21,760 nt of DNA from a virus. This document shows, piece by piece, positions 752-19,587 of the stretch (position 1 is its first letter; each line of letters begins with the position of its first letter). The position numbers and the translations under genes are program-made. Location of the stretch: IMG/VR virus record IMGVR_UViG_3300003690_000119, positions 1 to 21,760 of that record; one strand, written 5' to 3'. The notes below the pieces were generated by a model. That model ran no database searches. It was not told the DNA's origin and was given only the letters and a program-made list of their open reading frames with translations.

Positions 752-830
752 CATTATCGCATCAATGCAAGCAATAGTGAGGATGGGTTGACTGATTAAA
801 TCTGCGGGTTTGTGGGGTCTTGACTGTGGC

Positions 831-940
831 CCGGTTGTGGCCCGGTTGTGGTCCAGTTGTGGTCCGGTTACGATCCGGTTACGGTCCGGTTACGATCCGG
901 TTACGGTCCGGTTACGATCCGGTTACGGTCCGGTTACGGT
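831..940. repeat. 11-bp tandem array, ten units
   Basis: Ten consecutive 11-bp units read on the plus strand as CCGGTTACGAT, CCGGTTACGGT or, in the first three, CCGGTTGTGGC/T and CCAGTTGTGGT. Units 4 to 10 (864-940) alternate almost perfectly between ACGAT and ACGGT endings. On the minus strand each of these seven contains CGTAAC. One unit equals about one helical turn, so every copy faces the same side of the DNA. The array begins 107 bp upstream of the gpZ-like gene and swallows the last codons of the small gene at 912-1121. It is too short in unit and lacks spacers to be CRISPR. Iteron-like protein binding is the best explanation. Confidence 0.9.
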
Positions 941-1121
941 CCTTTGGTCGGGTTATGGATGCTCTCACCCAAATCTGTTTCCCCCGATGCTTTACTCCAC
1001 CGTTGCGCCAGTACCCTTGCCGGACAAGCTCCCCCGGCTTGCAGAGTTTCCTTAGCTTGCGGACTCGTAAGAAATCTTTGAGTTTTTGAAACATGGTATC
1101 TCCATAAGGAAACCGGGACAT
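912..1121 (-). CDS. Small basic protein of unknown function
   Basis: A 69-aa, strongly basic protein with many Lys and Arg and no acidic patches. I do not recognise it. Two starts are possible: ATG at 1121, preceded by GGAGGAGG seven bases upstream, and ATG ten codons later with GGAG five bases upstream; both are well placed. The last residues (RTVTGS) and the stop are encoded by the 11-bp tandem array, so the C-terminus is set by where the array supplies an in-frame stop. The gene follows the 96-aa gene after a 112-bp gap and is the last of the leftward small-gene operon before the array. The good ribosome-binding sites favour a real gene, but its length keeps this moderate. Confidence 0.5.
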   Translation of the reverse strand: MSRFPYGDTMFQKLKDFLRVRKLRKLCKPGELVRQGYWRNGGVKHRGKQIWVRASITRPKDRNRTVTGS

Positions 1122-2040: not shown

Positions 2041-2536
2041 TTTCTGCCTTTCTTCTTCGGCCCTGGGCTTTCTTTGCCCTCGTTTTCTCTTCAACTGTCA
2101 GAGATTCACCCTTCCAGTTCAACAACCTGACCACATCTGTGCCCGTCACTCTATCCCTGTAGAGCTTGGCCCAGCGATGCCCACTGGAATTGATCAGGTA
2201 AAGCTCCCCCGGTTTTTCTCCAGGCTCTTCTGTTCGTTCCTGATCCTCAGGGTTTGGAATCAAATGAGGGTTCAGCCGCATCCATGCCGCCCTCTTCAAT
2301 CGCGCCCTGGTCATCAATGCCGTCAGGATGGCCACTGCTTCTTCGTGGTTGCACCGGACATCAATCTTCGGCATATCCGGCATTGCCCCTTCAGGGTCCT
2401 CCCTGGACCCTAGGCCACTGGCCATCGAAGGTGGGGGAATGGGAGGAGAAAATCCCCGTAGGGGGATTTCTCCCCCATCCCCGCCGAGAAAGGGGCTCTC
2501 AATCACTTCCGTTTGATTTTCCATATAGTCTTCCAC
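2030..2536 (-). CDS. Unknown 168-aa phage protein
   Basis: The start is a GTG that overlaps the stop of the 222-aa gene (TAGTG). An ATG four codons later, with GGAAG upstream, is an alternative. Residues about 15-50 are Gly/Pro-rich and low in complexity (including PPIPPPS). The rest is a compact region with KIDVRCNHEEAVAILTALMTRA, then a WAKLYRDRVTGTDVVRLLNWKG stretch that looks like beta strands, and a basic tail (KKAQGRRRKAENAV). I do not recognise the family. Its position directly after the possible ssDNA-binding protein and before a winged-helix protein suggests a role in DNA metabolism, by context only. Confidence 0.7.
   Translation of the reverse strand: MEDYMENQTEVIESPFLGGDGGEIPLRGFSPPIPPPSMASGLGSREDPEGAMPDMPKIDVRCNHEEAVAILTALMTRARLKRAAWMRLNPHLIPNPEDQERTEEPGEKPGELYLINSSGHRWAKLYRDRVTGTDVVRLLNWKGESLTVEEKTRAKKAQGRRRKAENAV
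2450..2469. repeat. Perfect 8-bp inverted repeat inside a gene
   Basis: AAATCCCC and GGGGATTT flank a four-base loop, giving a strong potential hairpin in the mRNA of the 168-aa gene. It lies in the region coding the low-complexity Gly/Pro-rich segment. There is no U-tract after it on the minus strand, so it is not a typical terminator. Confidence 0.4.
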
Positions 2537-3204
2537 TAGACCACTTTTGGATGGGTTGGATGGGTTGGATGGGTTGGATACGCCTCAGAGTAGGGTTGCT
2601 TTGGCATCTCTTGCTGAACCGGCTGCTGAATCGGCTGCTGCTGTGGCTTGTCAAAAGGGTCTTTGCCCTCAAACAAAACCTCTAGATGAAGGTTTGTCAG
2701 GGCATCCTTGATGATCTCCATCTGAGTGCCTCCCAACGCTTCCGGCTGATACGGATGCACGGACCACATCTGTGCTGGAGGTTGGCTTTTGGAGTAGCGC
2801 ACATCAACATCATAAGTTCGCCAATCTGCAAATTGCGGGTTCGGACTAACCGGGTTCGTCAGATCAAATAGACGTTGCTGGAGTGTCTGCTGCCGGATCT
2901 CCCAGAGTGCAACCCGTCCGGCGTACCAGTCGTATACTGGCAATGTCCAGAATGGCTTGATTTTCTGGGGCTGTCCAAACTGGTCCTCCCCCAACATCTC
3001 CTCGGGGATATCGGCCCGGTTACGCTTATAGATTGGCTTGTTATCCAGCCCAAATGCAAGCCATCCACGGACCATCATCCCGTCCGTCATGGTGCCCAAC
3101 AGCCGGAGCTTTTTAGAGACTTCATCCGTGAATTTCAACCAATGCCCGGAGCCCTCCAAATCTACCCTAACTGCGGCTAAATGTTCTCCCCAGATGTCAG
3201 GCAT
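2536..3204 (-). CDS. Unknown 222-aa protein, possible ssDNA-binding protein
   Basis: The ATG has an excellent Shine-Dalgarno sequence (AAGGAGG, four bases upstream) that overlaps the end of the 47-aa gene. The first 60 or so residues look mixed alpha/beta. The central part (about 85-165) runs FWTLPVYDWYAGRVALWEIRQ, then a strand-rich segment with WRTYDVDVRYSKS and MWSVHPYQPEALG. This layout resembles OB-fold ssDNA-binding proteins of phage replication modules, but the resemblance is weak and from memory. The C-terminus is low-complexity, rich in Gln and then THP repeats, without the acidic tail typical of such proteins. It is the longest gene of the leftward operon. Confidence 0.8.
   Translation of the reverse strand: MPDIWGEHLAAVRVDLEGSGHWLKFTDEVSKKLRLLGTMTDGMMVRGWLAFGLDNKPIYKRNRADIPEEMLGEDQFGQPQKIKPFWTLPVYDWYAGRVALWEIRQQTLQQRLFDLTNPVSPNPQFADWRTYDVDVRYSKSQPPAQMWSVHPYQPEALGGTQMEIIKDALTNLHLEVLFEGKDPFDKPQQQPIQQPVQQEMPKQPYSEAYPTHPTHPTHPKVV
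2549..2575. repeat. 9-bp tandem repeat, three units
   Basis: Three perfect copies of GGATGGGTT encode the THP-THP-THP tail of the 222-aa protein on the minus strand. The unit is a multiple of three, so changes in copy number would not break the frame. Confidence 0.8.
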
Positions 3205-3213
3205 TCGACCTCC

Positions 3214-3357
3214 TTACTCCCATCTCCATCCTTTCCACATTCGATGGGGACCTGAAGCAGTTTTGCGCAGACGTGCCCAGATTCTGTCACTGAACTCCTT
3301 TGCCATTTTCTTACTGATTGCTGCATCGGCAGCAATGCACCCCTGGTCAATGCTCAT
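3214..3357 (-). CDS. Small 47-aa protein of unknown function
   Basis: A short open frame beginning MSIDQGCIAADA and ending RMWKGWRWE. Three signs support it. AAGGA lies five bases upstream of the ATG. The start overlaps the end of the upstream HTH gene by 11 bases. Its stop codon runs straight into the Shine-Dalgarno sequence of the 222-aa gene (TAAGGAGG). It exactly fills what would otherwise be a 142-bp hole in a tightly packed operon. The protein is basic, Trp-rich at the C-terminus and has no recognisable domain. Confidence 0.6.
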   Translation of the reverse strand: MSIDQGCIAADAAISKKMAKEFSDRIWARLRKTASGPHRMWKGWRWE

Positions 3358-3532
3358 CGCTTTCCTTATGGTTTAGTGTCCCGGCTTGCCAGTCCTCGAC
3401 ATCTCTTGGATTGTACAGACGCACACCGCCCTTCTGCTGGCACGGGATTTCATCTGCAAGTGTTCGAAGGAACTTTGACGGGGATAGGCCCAGCAGGTTG
3501 GCAACCTCCCAGGCAAATAGAGACTCTGACAT
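3347..3532 (-). CDS. Small HTH protein, excisionase/MerR-like fold
   Basis: A 61-aa protein. Residues 7-25 (WEVANLLGLSPSKFLRTLA) form a helix-turn-helix, followed by GGVRLYNPRDVEDW, which looks like the wing and last helix of small excisionase-like or Nu1-like DNA-binding proteins. AGGAGG lies four bases before the second of two adjacent ATG codons (3532); the first ATG (3535) is too close to it. It is the first gene of the leftward operon and faces away from the plus-strand AlpA-like gene, so the two small DNA-binding proteins bracket the control region. A role in regulating that region is plausible but not shown. Confidence 0.7.
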   Translation of the reverse strand: MSESLFAWEVANLLGLSPSKFLRTLADEIPCQQKGGVRLYNPRDVEDWQAGTLNHKESDEH

Positions 3533-3608
3533 CATTCCTCCTTGTTAGTGCATCGGCCCCACGGCAGGCGGAGCCTCAAGGGCTAACCCACAAATTCATG
3601 GACCCTCA

Positions 3609-3642: not shown

Positions 3643-3736
3643 GGTTTTTTTGCAGCGGAAACTGCCGGCCACTCGCTGGCGGGAACACCCCCTGTGTGGG
3701 TACTGCCAAAACTGACAAAACCTGTTTTTCGGGGGG

Positions 3737-3792
3737 TTTGGCTGATTGCTTCTGACGTAAGAGACGTAACACAGACGTAACACAGACGTAAA
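3737..3792 (+). repeat. Phased GACGTAA element, copy 1
   Basis: Four GACGTAA boxes start at 3754, 3763, 3774 and 3785 (spacing 9, 11, 11). The 17 bases before the first box are shared with copy 2 apart from one change. Over 56 bp this copy differs from the reverse complement of 12498-12553 at only two positions (3744 and 3762). It lies upstream of the AlpA-like gene and in the same orientation relative to it as copy 2 is to the tail chaperone gene. Confidence 0.9.
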
Positions 3793-3797
3793 AACCG

Positions 3798-3808
3798 TCA
3801 CTGAGTGA
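3798..3808. promoter_or_regulatory. Operator-like palindrome, copy 1
   Basis: TCACTGAGTGA is a perfect palindrome around a central G, preceded by CG as in the other two copies. It lies six bases after the phased GACGTAA element. Confidence 0.55.
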
Positions 3809-3871
3809 CCAAGTCAATCGCAATTATCTGAAATCATGTAGTAAACATTTTGCGATAGCCTGAAAAAAACG

Positions 3872-3882
3872 TCACTGAGTGA
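3872..3882. promoter_or_regulatory. Operator-like palindrome, copy 2
   Basis: Second exact TCACTGAGTGA, also preceded by CG. Its start is 21 bp from the start of copy 3, which is two helical turns, so proteins on both would lie on the same face of the DNA. Confidence 0.6.
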
Positions 3883-3892
3883 TCACTGGCCG

Positions 3893-3903
3893 TCACTGAG
3901 TGA
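3893..3903. promoter_or_regulatory. Operator-like palindrome, copy 3
   Basis: Third exact TCACTGAGTGA. It overlaps the expected -35 position for the TATACT box at 3915-3920, fitting either a repressor site or an activator site that replaces a poor -35. A partial fourth copy (CTGAGTGA) follows at 3930-3937. Confidence 0.6.
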
Positions 3904-3914
3904 TTTCCCTCCTT

Positions 3915-3920
3915 TATACT
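3915..3920 (+). promoter_or_regulatory. Candidate -10 box for the AlpA-like gene
   Basis: TATACT matches the sigma70 -10 consensus at five of six positions. The hexamer 17 bp upstream (GTCACT) is a poor -35 and falls inside an operator-like palindrome. The AlpA-like gene starts about 50 bases downstream of the likely transcription start. Confidence 0.35.
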
Positions 3921-3976
3921 CGTTCCAAGCTGAGTGAACAACCCCGTTCGCTCGAAACCCAAATCTTGAACGAGAT

Positions 3977-4171
3977 ATGGAAAATCCCAAAACTTTTTTG
4001 ACCCCGGAACAGGTCTCCGAACTCACGGGCGTTCGTGCCTCCACGCTGGCTAACTGGCGCTGGGCGCACCGAGGGCCGAAGTTTCACCGGCTGGGCCGAT
4101 CAATCCGCTACGAAAAGGGGGAGGTGCTGCGCTGGGCCGAAGCCCAGGCCGTGGAGCCGGAAACCGCCTGA
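3977..4171 (+). CDS. AlpA/excisionase-like HTH DNA-binding protein
   Basis: A 64-aa protein with the layout of the AlpA/HTH_17 group. FLTPEQVSELTGVRASTLANW (residues 7-27) is the helix-turn-helix; HRLGRSIRYEKGEVLRWAE (about 37-55) is the wing and the last helix. Such proteins act as excisionases or as transcription regulators. It is one of three plus-strand genes in the window, lies downstream of the operators and phased repeats, and its GC content looks higher than the flanking genes. The ribosome-binding site is weak (ACGAG). No integrase is in view, so excision versus transcriptional control cannot be decided. It converges on the lysis operon. Confidence 0.85.
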   Translation: MENPKTFLTPEQVSELTGVRASTLANWRWAHRGPKFHRLGRSIRYEKGEVLRWAEAQAVEPETA

Positions 4172-4186
4172 CCCCATAAACGACAA

Positions 4187-4513: not shown

Positions 4514-4891
4514 TCAATAACTCCATAGCCACGGTCGAGGGCCACTCACGCCATCTCCCAGGTCATCCATGTGCAAAAACCGGCTAGCGTGCGGACCTGA
4601 TTGTTTTATTCCAATCCCAGTCATCCCATACCCCCGCGCAAGCTCGACAAGGTCAAGGGCATCTGATCCTGAGATGCCGATATCAATTGCCCGGCCAGTC
4701 TGGTGTGGACCCTTTCCACCTAGAGCGGCATCATGGACCGGACATCGATAGCCACTATTGACGCGCATTGGTTTCCCGTATTCCTCGCGGATTTCTTGGA
4801 GACGATCAAGGAAGGCAACCTTCATCATGTTCACCCTGCACCCGCATTTGCACCTTAATTCGGCTTCACTGAAATTCTGGGTACTGGGCAT
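4514..4891 (-). CDS. Endolysin, M15-type zinc peptidase
   Basis: A 125-aa protein with the core of the M15 (M15_3, D,D- or L,D-carboxypeptidase/endopeptidase) family. VNSGYRCPVHDAALGG is the conserved substrate-side motif; HQTGRAIDIG supplies two zinc ligands (His about 63, Asp about 70) and FLHMDD the third (His about 107) with nearby acids. It would cleave the peptide part of peptidoglycan at the end of infection. No signal peptide or membrane segment is visible, so export must depend on the neighbouring membrane proteins. ATG at 4891 touches the stop of the upstream gene (TGATG); a GTG one codon earlier is possible. The N-terminal LRCKCGCR cysteine cluster is common in phage copies of this family. 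Confidence 0.9.
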   Translation of the reverse strand: MPSTQNFSEAELRCKCGCRVNMMKVAFLDRLQEIREEYGKPMRVNSGYRCPVHDAALGGKGPHQTGRAIDIGISGSDALDLVELARGYGMTGIGIKQSGPHASRFLHMDDLGDGVSGPRPWLWSY

Positions 4892-11754: not shown

Positions 11755-12475
11755 TACCTGCGTTTTGGTCTTTTCCTCATTTCCTCGGATTTTCTGCGCT
11801 GCTCAATCACTCCCTGCCGGTGGGAATATAAAACAGTTTCAATGTGCAGCAAACGCTCCCAGAGTTCTGGAAACTTCATCCCATACAATCCCAGCACCTC
11901 CAGCATATCGGAGGCTTGCAGGGGATCAGTGCCCCCACGCCGGCCAGTCCAGTCCAGTTGTCTCCAAACCTTGACCAGCAGGGCGTTGATTGGAGTGATC
12001 TTCAGCAGCCCTCGTGGGCATATCCTGCATGGCGGATTTTCCCACTGGCTCAGTTTGGACTTGCAGCACCAGCTCTCCTCGAAGGAGGTACCCTGCTTGA
12101 TGCCATGCTCCTCTGATCCCTCGGCATAGCTTGCCTGTCCTGTTTCCAGGTCCAGCCACTGGTTTAGTTTCCCAGTTCAATCTCGACCTCTTCAAGAACT
12201 TGCCGAATTAGTTTGTCTGCGACACTGATGCAAAGGGTTGCATGGATTTGCAGCAACTTTTTTTTGTTTGTCTTGTTGCATGGAAAAGCCTCCCCGCCCA
12301 TCTCCAACCCGTCCCAGCTTGTCACGCATCCCTCAAAAATCCGTTTGTTCTGCTCTGCTCCCGATTGCCCCTGCTGTGATAGCTCGTCAATCTGGGGCCT
12401 CTTGCACCAGAACGTCACCTCCTGATGCTTCTGTAAATTGATTGGAATCTCCTCGGAAAACTCCTTTAAGTCCAT
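11754..12475 (-). CDS. Tail assembly chaperone gpGT, -1 frameshift product
   Basis: This is the frameshifted product of the gpG gene. A GGGAAAC heptamer at 12173-12167, in frame as G GGA AAC, is followed at once by the gpG stop TAA. Slipping back one base opens a 137-codon frame that I translated by hand from 12167 to the stop at 11756-11754. It starts LNQWLDLETG, contains a CC...CRIC cysteine cluster (extension residues about 34-50), a helical part (DMLEVLGLYGMKFPELWERL) and a very basic end (RKRPKRR). The fusion would be about 240 aa. The stop overlaps the tape-measure ATG, leaving no gap, exactly as expected for the lambda G/GT arrangement. GT binds the tape measure during tail assembly. 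Confidence 0.8.
12139..12173 (-). promoter_or_regulatory. Programmed -1 ribosomal frameshift site
   Basis: The heptamer GGGAAAC fits X XXY YYZ (lambda uses GGGAAAG). Four bases downstream, CCAG-TGG-CTGG (12162-12152) can form a small hairpin, and CCTG-GAAA-CAGG (12150-12139) a second with a GNRA loop. These may act as stimulators. The zero-frame stop lies directly after the heptamer. Confidence 0.8.
12164..12475 (-). CDS. Tail assembly chaperone gpG
   Basis: A 103-aa zero-frame product, starting at ATG with AGGA five bases upstream. It is mostly helical and acidic at the C-terminus (VADKLIRQVLEEVEIELGN), as gpG-type chaperones tend to be, and sits between tail tube and tape measure. By analogy with lambda, gpG is made in excess and coats the tape measure together with gpGT, and neither is in the finished tail. 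No sequence motif is strong alone; the slippery site at its end and the position make the call. Confidence 0.75.
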   Translation of the reverse strand: MDLKEFSEEIPINLQKHQEVTFWCKRPQIDELSQQGQSGAEQNKRIFEGCVTSWDGLEMGGEAFPCNKTNKKKLLQIHATLCISVADKLIRQVLEEVEIELGN

Positions 12476-12497
12476 TTGTTCCTAATTATTTCTAATA

Positions 12498-12553
12498 TTT
12501 ACGTCTGTGTTACGTCTGTGTTACGTCACTTACGTCAGAAGCAATAAGCCAAA
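12498..12553 (-). repeat. Phased GACGTAA element, copy 2
   Basis: Reverse-strand copy of 3737-3792, with two differences in 56 bp. Four TTACGTC boxes start at 12499, 12510, 12521 and 12530 on the plus strand. It lies in the 137-bp gap between the tail tube gene and gpG, 22 bases upstream of the gpG start, one of the few real gaps in the late operon. Confidence 0.9.
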
Positions 12554-12574
12554 GCGTTTCTACAGAATGTAACG

Positions 12575-12601
12575 CCAAACCCCTCCAGTGCTGGCGCACC
12601 A
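12575..12601 (-). terminator. Hairpin after the tail tube gene
   Basis: On the minus strand an imperfect hairpin (CCCTC and GAGGG outer arms, CTGG-TGCG-CCAG inner arms) follows the tail tube stop by about a dozen bases. No U-tract follows, so it is a weak terminator or an mRNA-stabilising stem that would keep tail tube message more abundant than downstream genes. Confidence 0.3.
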
Positions 12602-12612
12602 GAGGGTTCGGA

Positions 12613-18778: not shown

Positions 18779-18937
18779 TCGCTGGCGTGGTTGATCTATT
18801 TATTTTATCGATACCTGCGATACAATCTTTATATGCGGGTACTGCGTTTTTCTGTGGACAAAGACGTAGCGACCGCGTAAACTGGTATCAGAGTTGACGC
18901 AAGGGGCATCAACCGGAACCCAAAGCAAAGTAGAAAA

Positions 18938-19414
18938 ATGAAGATTAAAGTGACACCACCCCTGGATGCAGCACTGGCCTTGAAACCAGGGGAGACCCAG
19001 GGAATAGTCTGGCCCCCATTCGGAAGTTCTCGCAGGGGCCAAGCTAGAGGCATCTATCTGTCAGCGGATGCCTCGAAAAATGATGCCGGGCAAATCTGCA
19101 TCACATGGGCAGTATCCGTTAGTCGCATAAAGCCCAACGGACGACCGGCAACCGGCCTTGAGGGCAGCTTCAAACTTCGGGTCACTGTCCGGGAAACAGA
19201 AACTGGTGCAGACTTGACACTGCAAGCCCCGTTTGCCGCAGAAGAACGGCAAGATTTTGCAACGGTGCAGGAGGCCATTGATGGGTTCCCAGCTCGGCTA
19301 ATACCGTTTTTGCAAAGTTTACGATTGCTGGAGACTAGCCAAGGACGATTAGCCCTCGGAGAGGTCAGTGCCCCCTCTGGTGGAGTTCTGTTTGCGCTCC
19401 CAACAATTGATTGA
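18938..19414 (+). CDS. Unknown 158-aa plus-strand protein, moron-like
   Basis: A plus-strand gene inside the minus-strand late operon. The translation has balanced composition (strand-rich first 110 residues such as SFKLRVTVRETETGADLTL, then helical VQEAIDGFPARLIPFLQSL), while the overlapping minus-strand frame is Ser/Arg/Pro-rich like a shadow. The ATG has only a weak purine stretch upstream. Its stop overlaps the start of the small HTH gene (TGATG), so the pair is co-translated. I do not recognise the family and see no membrane span or catalytic motif. GC content appears higher than the flanking genes, which fits later acquisition. Confidence 0.7.
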   Translation: MKIKVTPPLDAALALKPGETQGIVWPPFGSSRRGQARGIYLSADASKNDAGQICITWAVSVSRIKPNGRPATGLEGSFKLRVTVRETETGADLTLQAPFAAEERQDFATVQEAIDGFPARLIPFLQSLRLLETSQGRLALGEVSAPSGGVLFALPTID

Positions 19415-19587
19415 TGATGACCGCATCCGATTTCCGACAAATCCGCAAAGCCCTCGGACTCTCCATGGTTGAGGCCGCCCGTGAGTCGCGGGTACCCTAT
19501 CGCACTTGGCAATCGTGGGAAGGGGGAGAAGTGCCGATCCCCGAATACGCTAAGACCCTGCTGGACCATCTTGCTTGCACTCCTTAA
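19414..19587 (+). CDS. Small XRE/Cro-type HTH protein
   Basis: A 57-aa protein: DFRQIRKALGLSMVEAARES, then RVPYRTWQSWEGGEVPIPEY. This is a clear Cro/XRE-type helix-turn-helix with the conserved recognition-helix and W-E-G-G turn. The ATG overlaps the upstream stop by one base. The stop (19585-19587) overlaps the end of the terminase gene on the other strand. It could regulate its own cassette or, being a Cro-size DNA-binding protein, phage genes elsewhere. Confidence 0.75.
   Translation: MMTASDFRQIRKALGLSMVEAARESRVPYRTWQSWEGGEVPIPEYAKTLLDHLACTP

Follow-up and report, generated by a model that had tools for sequence, protein, structure and literature searches.

Two separated sites with the same repeats, ori and crr, are found in the one small genome of satellite phage P4 (alpha protein), a satellite without capsid genes of its own. 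Cluster K mycobacteriophages carry start-associated sequences, which are single motifs placed before many early genes, and BldC and lambda Xis bind head-to-tail on phased direct repeats. The origins of SaPI and PICI elements lie directly 3′ of rep, with iteron sets on either side of an AT-rich region (PMC6092414). DUF927-containing Cch is related to the SaPIbov1 Rep helicase, and the binding of Cch2 requires its direct repeats (PMC7581432). A helicase is listed as a core gene of the CRP-822 group of roseophages, but the contigs of that group were retrieved only if they held the helicase (PMC12629253).

Here we examine a 56-bp element that occurs twice, in inverse orientation, in a stretch of viral DNA of 21,760 bp (the window). 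The element is probably a replication iteron array, and its form resembles that of the iteron origins of the SaPI-Rep/Cch kind.

Results and Discussion

The window is an IMG/VR virus contig without terminal repeats; apparently it is the near-complete genome of a small tailed phage (∼22 kb), and a full set of head and tail genes is present. Relatives were retrieved through searches with the gpG-like and major tail proteins (L003–L011) and with the early HTH protein (L058–L061). BLAST of the early gap of the window against phages gave no match, and neither did a gpG profile search in genomes, made to find a host.

A sequence-only reading of the window had reported the same 56 bp at two places, on opposite strands and with two differences, each copy bearing four GACGTAA boxes. 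A repeat search bears this out: the element is the single 56-bp inverted pair found in the window, the copies are 96% identical (Table 1), and the boxes start at 3754, 3763, 3774, and 3785 (+) in copy 1 and, as TTACGTC, at 12499, 12510, 12521, and 12530 in copy 2, with spacings of 9/11/11 in each. The pair is real and not due to chance. All 8 exact GACGTAA heptamers of the window lie within the two arrays, where 0.84 would be expected in the window as a whole, and its longest exact inverted repeat measures 30 nt, whereas 30 windows simulated by a Markov model gave 13–16 nt. The copies also agree in the 16 non-repeat bases that precede the boxes, which supports the view that copies 1 and 2 are related by descent. 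Each copy is oriented toward the gene downstream of it, as had been claimed, at unequal distances of 22 nt (end of copy 2 to the gpG start) and 184 nt (end of copy 1 to the AlpA-like start); copy 1 in addition precedes a small HTH gene that points the other way (3347–3535, −).

Both copies consist of several short direct repeats at near-helical spacing in non-coding DNA, as do the SaPI/PICI/Cch-type origins. AT-rich DNA adjoins both arrays on the same side of the boxes, and the window has about six AT-rich stretches of comparable kind. In the SaPI/PICI and Cch/Cch2 origins the iteron sets flank one AT-rich region; in the window each set adjoins AT-rich DNA, and the two lie 8.7 kb apart in inverse orientation.

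An RNA hairpin within the 56-bp element was rejected (folding z −0.75). A dispersed host repeat was likewise rejected, with 4 matches to CAGACGTAANACAGACGTAA in 257 Gb compared with ∼2 expected by chance from base counts. The exact pattern GACGTAA-N(2-4)-GACGTAACACAGACGTAA has no copy outside the window in viral contigs.

Table 1. Coordinates of the features discussed, in the window and in other contigs
Feature	Position or contig	Strand	Basis or remark
Further 11-bp direct-repeat array (GGTCCGGTTAC, ∼11 copies), before tail gene	806–948		repeat search
Second small HTH_17-like protein, 62 aa	3347–3535	−	kept in relatives with and without array
Segment swapped in L058/L059 for a different iteron module	3653–4177		flanks 94% and 87% identical
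56-bp element, copy 1: 16 bp plus four GACGTAA boxes	3737–3792	+	putative iteron array; repeat search
AT-rich stretch beside copy 1, possible unwinding region	3793–3869		37% G+C at 3793–3868, 32% at 3810–3869; genome 51%
Three TCACTGAGTGA palindromes (3798, 3872, 3893), probable operators before AlpA-like gene	3798–3903		presumed function
AlpA/Xis-like HTH_17 protein, 64 aa, within exchangeable segment	3977–4171	+	
gpG-like tail assembly chaperone, 103 aa	12164–12475	−	assigned by position
AT-rich stretch beside copy 2, partly coding	12431–12497		60-mers 30–32% G+C; 18% at 12476–12497
Tail-gap stretch absent from L003, L004, L006, where the gap is short	12482–12572	−	alignment to relatives
56-bp element, copy 2, in gap between major tail protein gene and gpG-like gene	12498–12553	−	repeat search
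Hairpin AACCCTCTGGTGCGCCAGCACTGGAGGGGTT after major tail protein gene, kept in relatives	12575–12611	−	folding z −4.2
9-bp array 3′ of DUF927 gene	L062, L063, L064, L065/L067/L072, L068, L071		
9-bp array 3′ of VapE gene	L069, L073, L074, L076, L078		
GACGTAA array 37 bp 3′ of DUF927 + Cch-HTH gene	L038		
GACGTAA array 183 bp 3′ of Prim-Pol/VapE gene	L055		
GACGTAA array 965 bp from Prim-Pol/DUF3987 gene	L023		
GACGTAA array 190 bp upstream of BT4734-like_N gene	L028 and kin		

The early gap that holds copy 1 (lysis/HTH62) behaves as a site at which short phased arrays are exchanged as cassettes, because L058/L059 and L003 carry other arrays there. L058 and L059 lack the segment with the array, the AlpA-like gene, and the three TCACTGAGTGA palindromes, and have in its place ∼150 bp that contain, in order, GTACCCACT x3, a hairpin of the unit, GTGGGAAC, 26 nt, and GTTCCCACT x3. 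In this gap of L003 the element has a 41-bp match (95%) with the same 9/11/11 spacing. That gap holds both array types, GACGTAA and 9-bp, together with GTTTCCACT x3, GTTCCCACT x3 in inverted form, and an AT-rich repeat of 42 bp; two inverted GTTYCCACT sets stand around an AT-rich stretch, and the L003 GACGTAA array has no AT-rich DNA adjoining it on the same side. The early gap of L006 has no array.

The boxes could instead be operators of the 64-aa AlpA-like HTH_17 protein, which would bind head-to-tail on the phased repeats and so control the tail chaperone gene as well as the promoter from which it is itself expressed. The repeats are direct and phased, which does imply a repeat-binding protein, as had been argued from the sequence; the HTH_17 gene shares an exchangeable segment with copy 1, and AlpA is an autoactivator in PICIs (PMC6092414). 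We nevertheless judge this explanation unlikely. The array does not accompany the gene in relatives: L003 has the array and lacks an AlpA-like gene in that gap, and in five contigs (L012–L016) the AlpA-like homologues are not preceded by such an array. A different set of probable operators (TCACTGAGTGA) is nearer the gene, and GACGTAA arrays recur beside replicases (Table 1). Together with L058, where the second HTH protein is kept at 90% identity and the GACGTAA array is absent, these cases leave unsupported the earlier suggestion that one regulator serves both an early-control gene and the tail operon.

Copy 2 stands between the major tail protein gene and gpG, in a gap that differs in nearly every relative except for the hairpin. 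L003, L004, and L006 have no insert, the window has the 56-bp element, and L005 and L007 have different inserts; the insertions sit downstream of the hairpin, and one (L005) also upstream. The L005 gap (4657–4814) contains GTGCGTTGAAAA x3 (12 bp) before the hairpin and GACCAAGTTTG x4 (11 bp) after it. In L007 (8057–8297), an insert of ∼150–200 bp contains the inverted repeat CGTCTCTTCCGAATGCGGAC (20 bp), two copies of TGTCCGCATTG, and a gpG start that is repeated in truncated form, and it folds far better than shuffles (z −6.2). The contents of the gap vary among L005, L007, and the window, and copy 2 is therefore one among a number of different insertions that this gap has received. The alignment to the relatives picks up again at 12481 and 12573, giving an insertion of ∼91 bp; because it resumes on both sides, an assembly join can be eliminated as the source of copy 2. 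The interpretation offered by the sequence-only reading is supported in part, in that both copies sit in exchangeable segments.

Variability of this kind is also what a neutral history would leave, in which a repeat-prone non-coding element was copied by template switching into an insertion-tolerant gap and copy 2 has no function. Such a history agrees with a non-coding gap that differs in nearly every relative, with the arrays of other units there in L005 and L007, and with the inclusion of non-repeat flank in the copy. It fits poorly with the preservation between L003 and the window of the four-box spacing and of 41 bp at 95% identity, compared with 72–77% for most of the aligned coding DNA, an argument that bears on copy 1 more than on copy 2. 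We regard this explanation as quite unlikely, though it may hold for copy 2.

A scan of viral contigs for GTWYCCACT x3 returned 16 unrelated contigs besides the window group. In 13 of the 16, a DUF927 or VapE gene, encoding a primase-helicase of the SaPI-Rep/Cch type, has the 9-bp array (GTACCCACT/GTTCCCACT) 21–677 bp beyond its 3′ end; L067 and L072 are included on the basis of the 598-aa frame that they share with L065 at the corresponding position. A random-position test, with 11 contigs taken as independent and gene presence taken as given, yields p about 4e-8. An inverted unit is found 24–27 or 48–49 nt before the array in most of the unrelated contigs, and 26 nt before it in L058/L059. 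Because these arrays lie 3′ of DUF927/VapE genes, matching the published origin position and the repeat dependence of Cch2, the GTWYCCACT arrays are very probably origin iterons.

The replicase link is more limited for GACGTAA than for the GTWYCCACT arrays. Non-coding GACGTAA arrays adjoin primase-helicase genes in 4 of ∼10 cases, a count that covers this one heptamer; as far as tested, no known replicase lies near the array in L019, L021, L026, L042, L044/51/57, L049, and L056. The L019 array is beside a Mu-like transposase. Similar flanks surround the 11-bp arrays of L019 (998–1059) and L021 (3270–3320), the units of which are partly different (GGACGTAAGTT vs GGACGTAACTC). Many 12-bp-period GACGTAA matches are accounted for by collagen-like GDVT coding repeats and were set aside, and the 12-bp GACGTAAC repeats of L024, L030, L043, L045, and L048, which lie inside long open frames and read G-D-V-T, were rejected as coding and unrelated.

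The best terminase matches of the window are to CRP-822-type roseophages (TerL 49% identical), and its closest cultured relatives are the Roseobacter phages CRP-821, CRP-811, and CRP-406. CRP-821 has the same gene order as the window, including a tail gene that adjoins TerS, and its SSB gene is followed by a primase/helicase and then the tail gene; protein matches between the two are confined to head and packaging genes. The CRP-821 helicase carries AAA_25, and its gene is followed by GTATAAA repeats and the hairpin AACCCTTTAGGGTT (L083 3282–3456). The homologous helicase gene of CRP-811 is followed by TTTGTAG repeats and the same hairpin (L085 4363–4548), and the comparison suggests that iterons turn over among closely related phages. 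In CRP-406 an 11-bp array stands at the 3′ end of the helicase gene. The roseophages thus share the genome order of the window and carry 9–11-bp arrays, but theirs accompany a helicase whose gene follows SSB and precedes the tail gene, whereas the window has no helicase and has its arrays elsewhere.

VapE, DUF927, and AAA_25 have no match in the window or its relatives, no other replicase domains were found among the window proteins scanned, and L061 has no helicase from the SSB-like gene through the tail gene. The neighbors of the two copies are lysis, HTH, and tail genes rather than an initiator (rep) gene directly 5′ of the array. The window ends with a tail gene (40–723) and with TerS (21331 to beyond 21760, its start seen in L010), and because these two genes stand at its two ends little sequence seems to be missing, the tail/TerS junction lying outside; this junction measures 135 bp in CRP-406 and 276 bp in CRP-821. 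Since no helicase occurs in the window or its relatives over the stretch in question, it is fair to infer that the initiator acts in trans, with one junction (tail/TerS) outside the sequence seen.

The 806–948 array, which separates the early genes from the tail gene, stands at the place occupied by helicase and origin in the CRP phages; the L058 contig breaks off at this GGTCCGGTTAC array. Structure models of the early proteins 2536–3204 and 2030–2536 (pLDDT 39 and 46) were too poor for use. Protein 2536–3204 is called SSB-like from gene order only, and BLASTP with the CRP-821 SSB gave no match. At 18782–19582 the window has a plus-strand ORF (18938–19414) against the operon, a stretch with no nucleotide match in L007/L010, which have ∼650 other bases there.

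The lack of an initiator and the turnover of cassettes would also suit a decoy, in which the boxes are iterons of a competing satellite or plasmid that titrate its initiator (incompatibility) or gain recognition by it, and the several unrelated iteron types in one L003 gap point the same way. Arrays of 3–4 boxes are small for titration, however, and no competitor with the same iterons was identified, and we consider a decoy very unlikely. That the element serves gpG as an internal promoter, or otherwise controls its transcription, is scarcely credible: a weak promoter-like match (12513–12485, −) overlaps copy 2, but only 9/12 positions agree, 2 such sites compare with 0.5 (sd 0.9) in shuffles, copy 1 has no promoter-like match, and relatives without the element keep the gene order.

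Under the iteron reading, direct repeats at about one helical turn would be read head-to-tail by the DNA-binding domain of an initiator helicase of the SaPI Rep/Cch/VapE/P4-alpha type, and the bound initiator would open the neighboring AT-rich DNA so that replication starts. Copy 1, in which the array is followed by AT-rich DNA, would be the likely origin site as well as an exchangeable cassette. Copy 2 would have been copied from copy 1, inverted, into the tail operon gap, where it may be a second initiator-binding site, as with P4 ori plus crr, or a by-product of copying. The in-trans initiator would be the replicase of another element, expected to carry AGACGTAAC iterons at its own 3′ end. 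On balance we lean toward this reading as a whole, that of orphan iterons carried by exchangeable cassettes, of which one was copied into the tail operon, with the initiator probably in trans. Counted against it are the location of both copies away from any initiator gene, while the established origins of this type follow rep on its 3′ side; the lack of the inverted unit at 24–27 nt in either copy; the ∼6/10 non-coding GACGTAA families that are not next to a known replicase; the L003 array, which has no AT-rich DNA on the corresponding side; and the chance that an initiator gene lies in the tail/TerS junction.

The likeness to the SaPI/PICI (Rep, Pri-Rep) and SCCmec Cch/Cch2 origins lies in short direct repeats in a non-coding gap with AT-rich DNA alongside, and in the presence, in the same gap of the window's relatives, of arrays like those that follow DUF927/VapE genes on their 3′ side. 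We do not file the element in the SaPI-Rep/Cch family because the defining location next to rep fails; the window has no rep gene by the array or elsewhere in the sequence seen. As in P4, there are two separated sites with the same repeats, but the window lacks an alpha-type protein and, unlike that satellite, has a full head and tail set. The cluster K start-associated sequences are likewise repeated non-coding motifs before phage gene starts, whereas those of the window are phased arrays in two places. The earlier statement that no named phage element has this form is therefore only partly right, since the form matches the iteron origins of SaPI-Rep/Cch/P4-alpha-type replicases; new here is an array that is orphaned, cassette-borne, and duplicated in inverse orientation.

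Conclusions

The phage may borrow the copying enzyme of another element. That the window phage depends on a helper replicase is possible, though doubtful. A broader scheme, which we put forward tentatively and think rather unlikely, is that a lineage of ∼22-kb tailed phages lost its own helicase and picks up, at two or three fixed gaps, iteron modules that belong to different initiator families, to be copied by the initiator of a resident plasmid, satellite, or co-infecting phage, with the inverted tail-operon array as part of the scheme.

As a practical lead, phased arrays such as GTTCCCACT x3 mark the origins of DUF927/VapE-type replicases and could be used to pair orphan origins with initiators. 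If the arrays are origins, a phage lineage swaps its replication specificity as a cassette of ∼100–500 bp, perhaps without the initiator gene. If true, this would reverse the usual picture of satellites exploiting phages.
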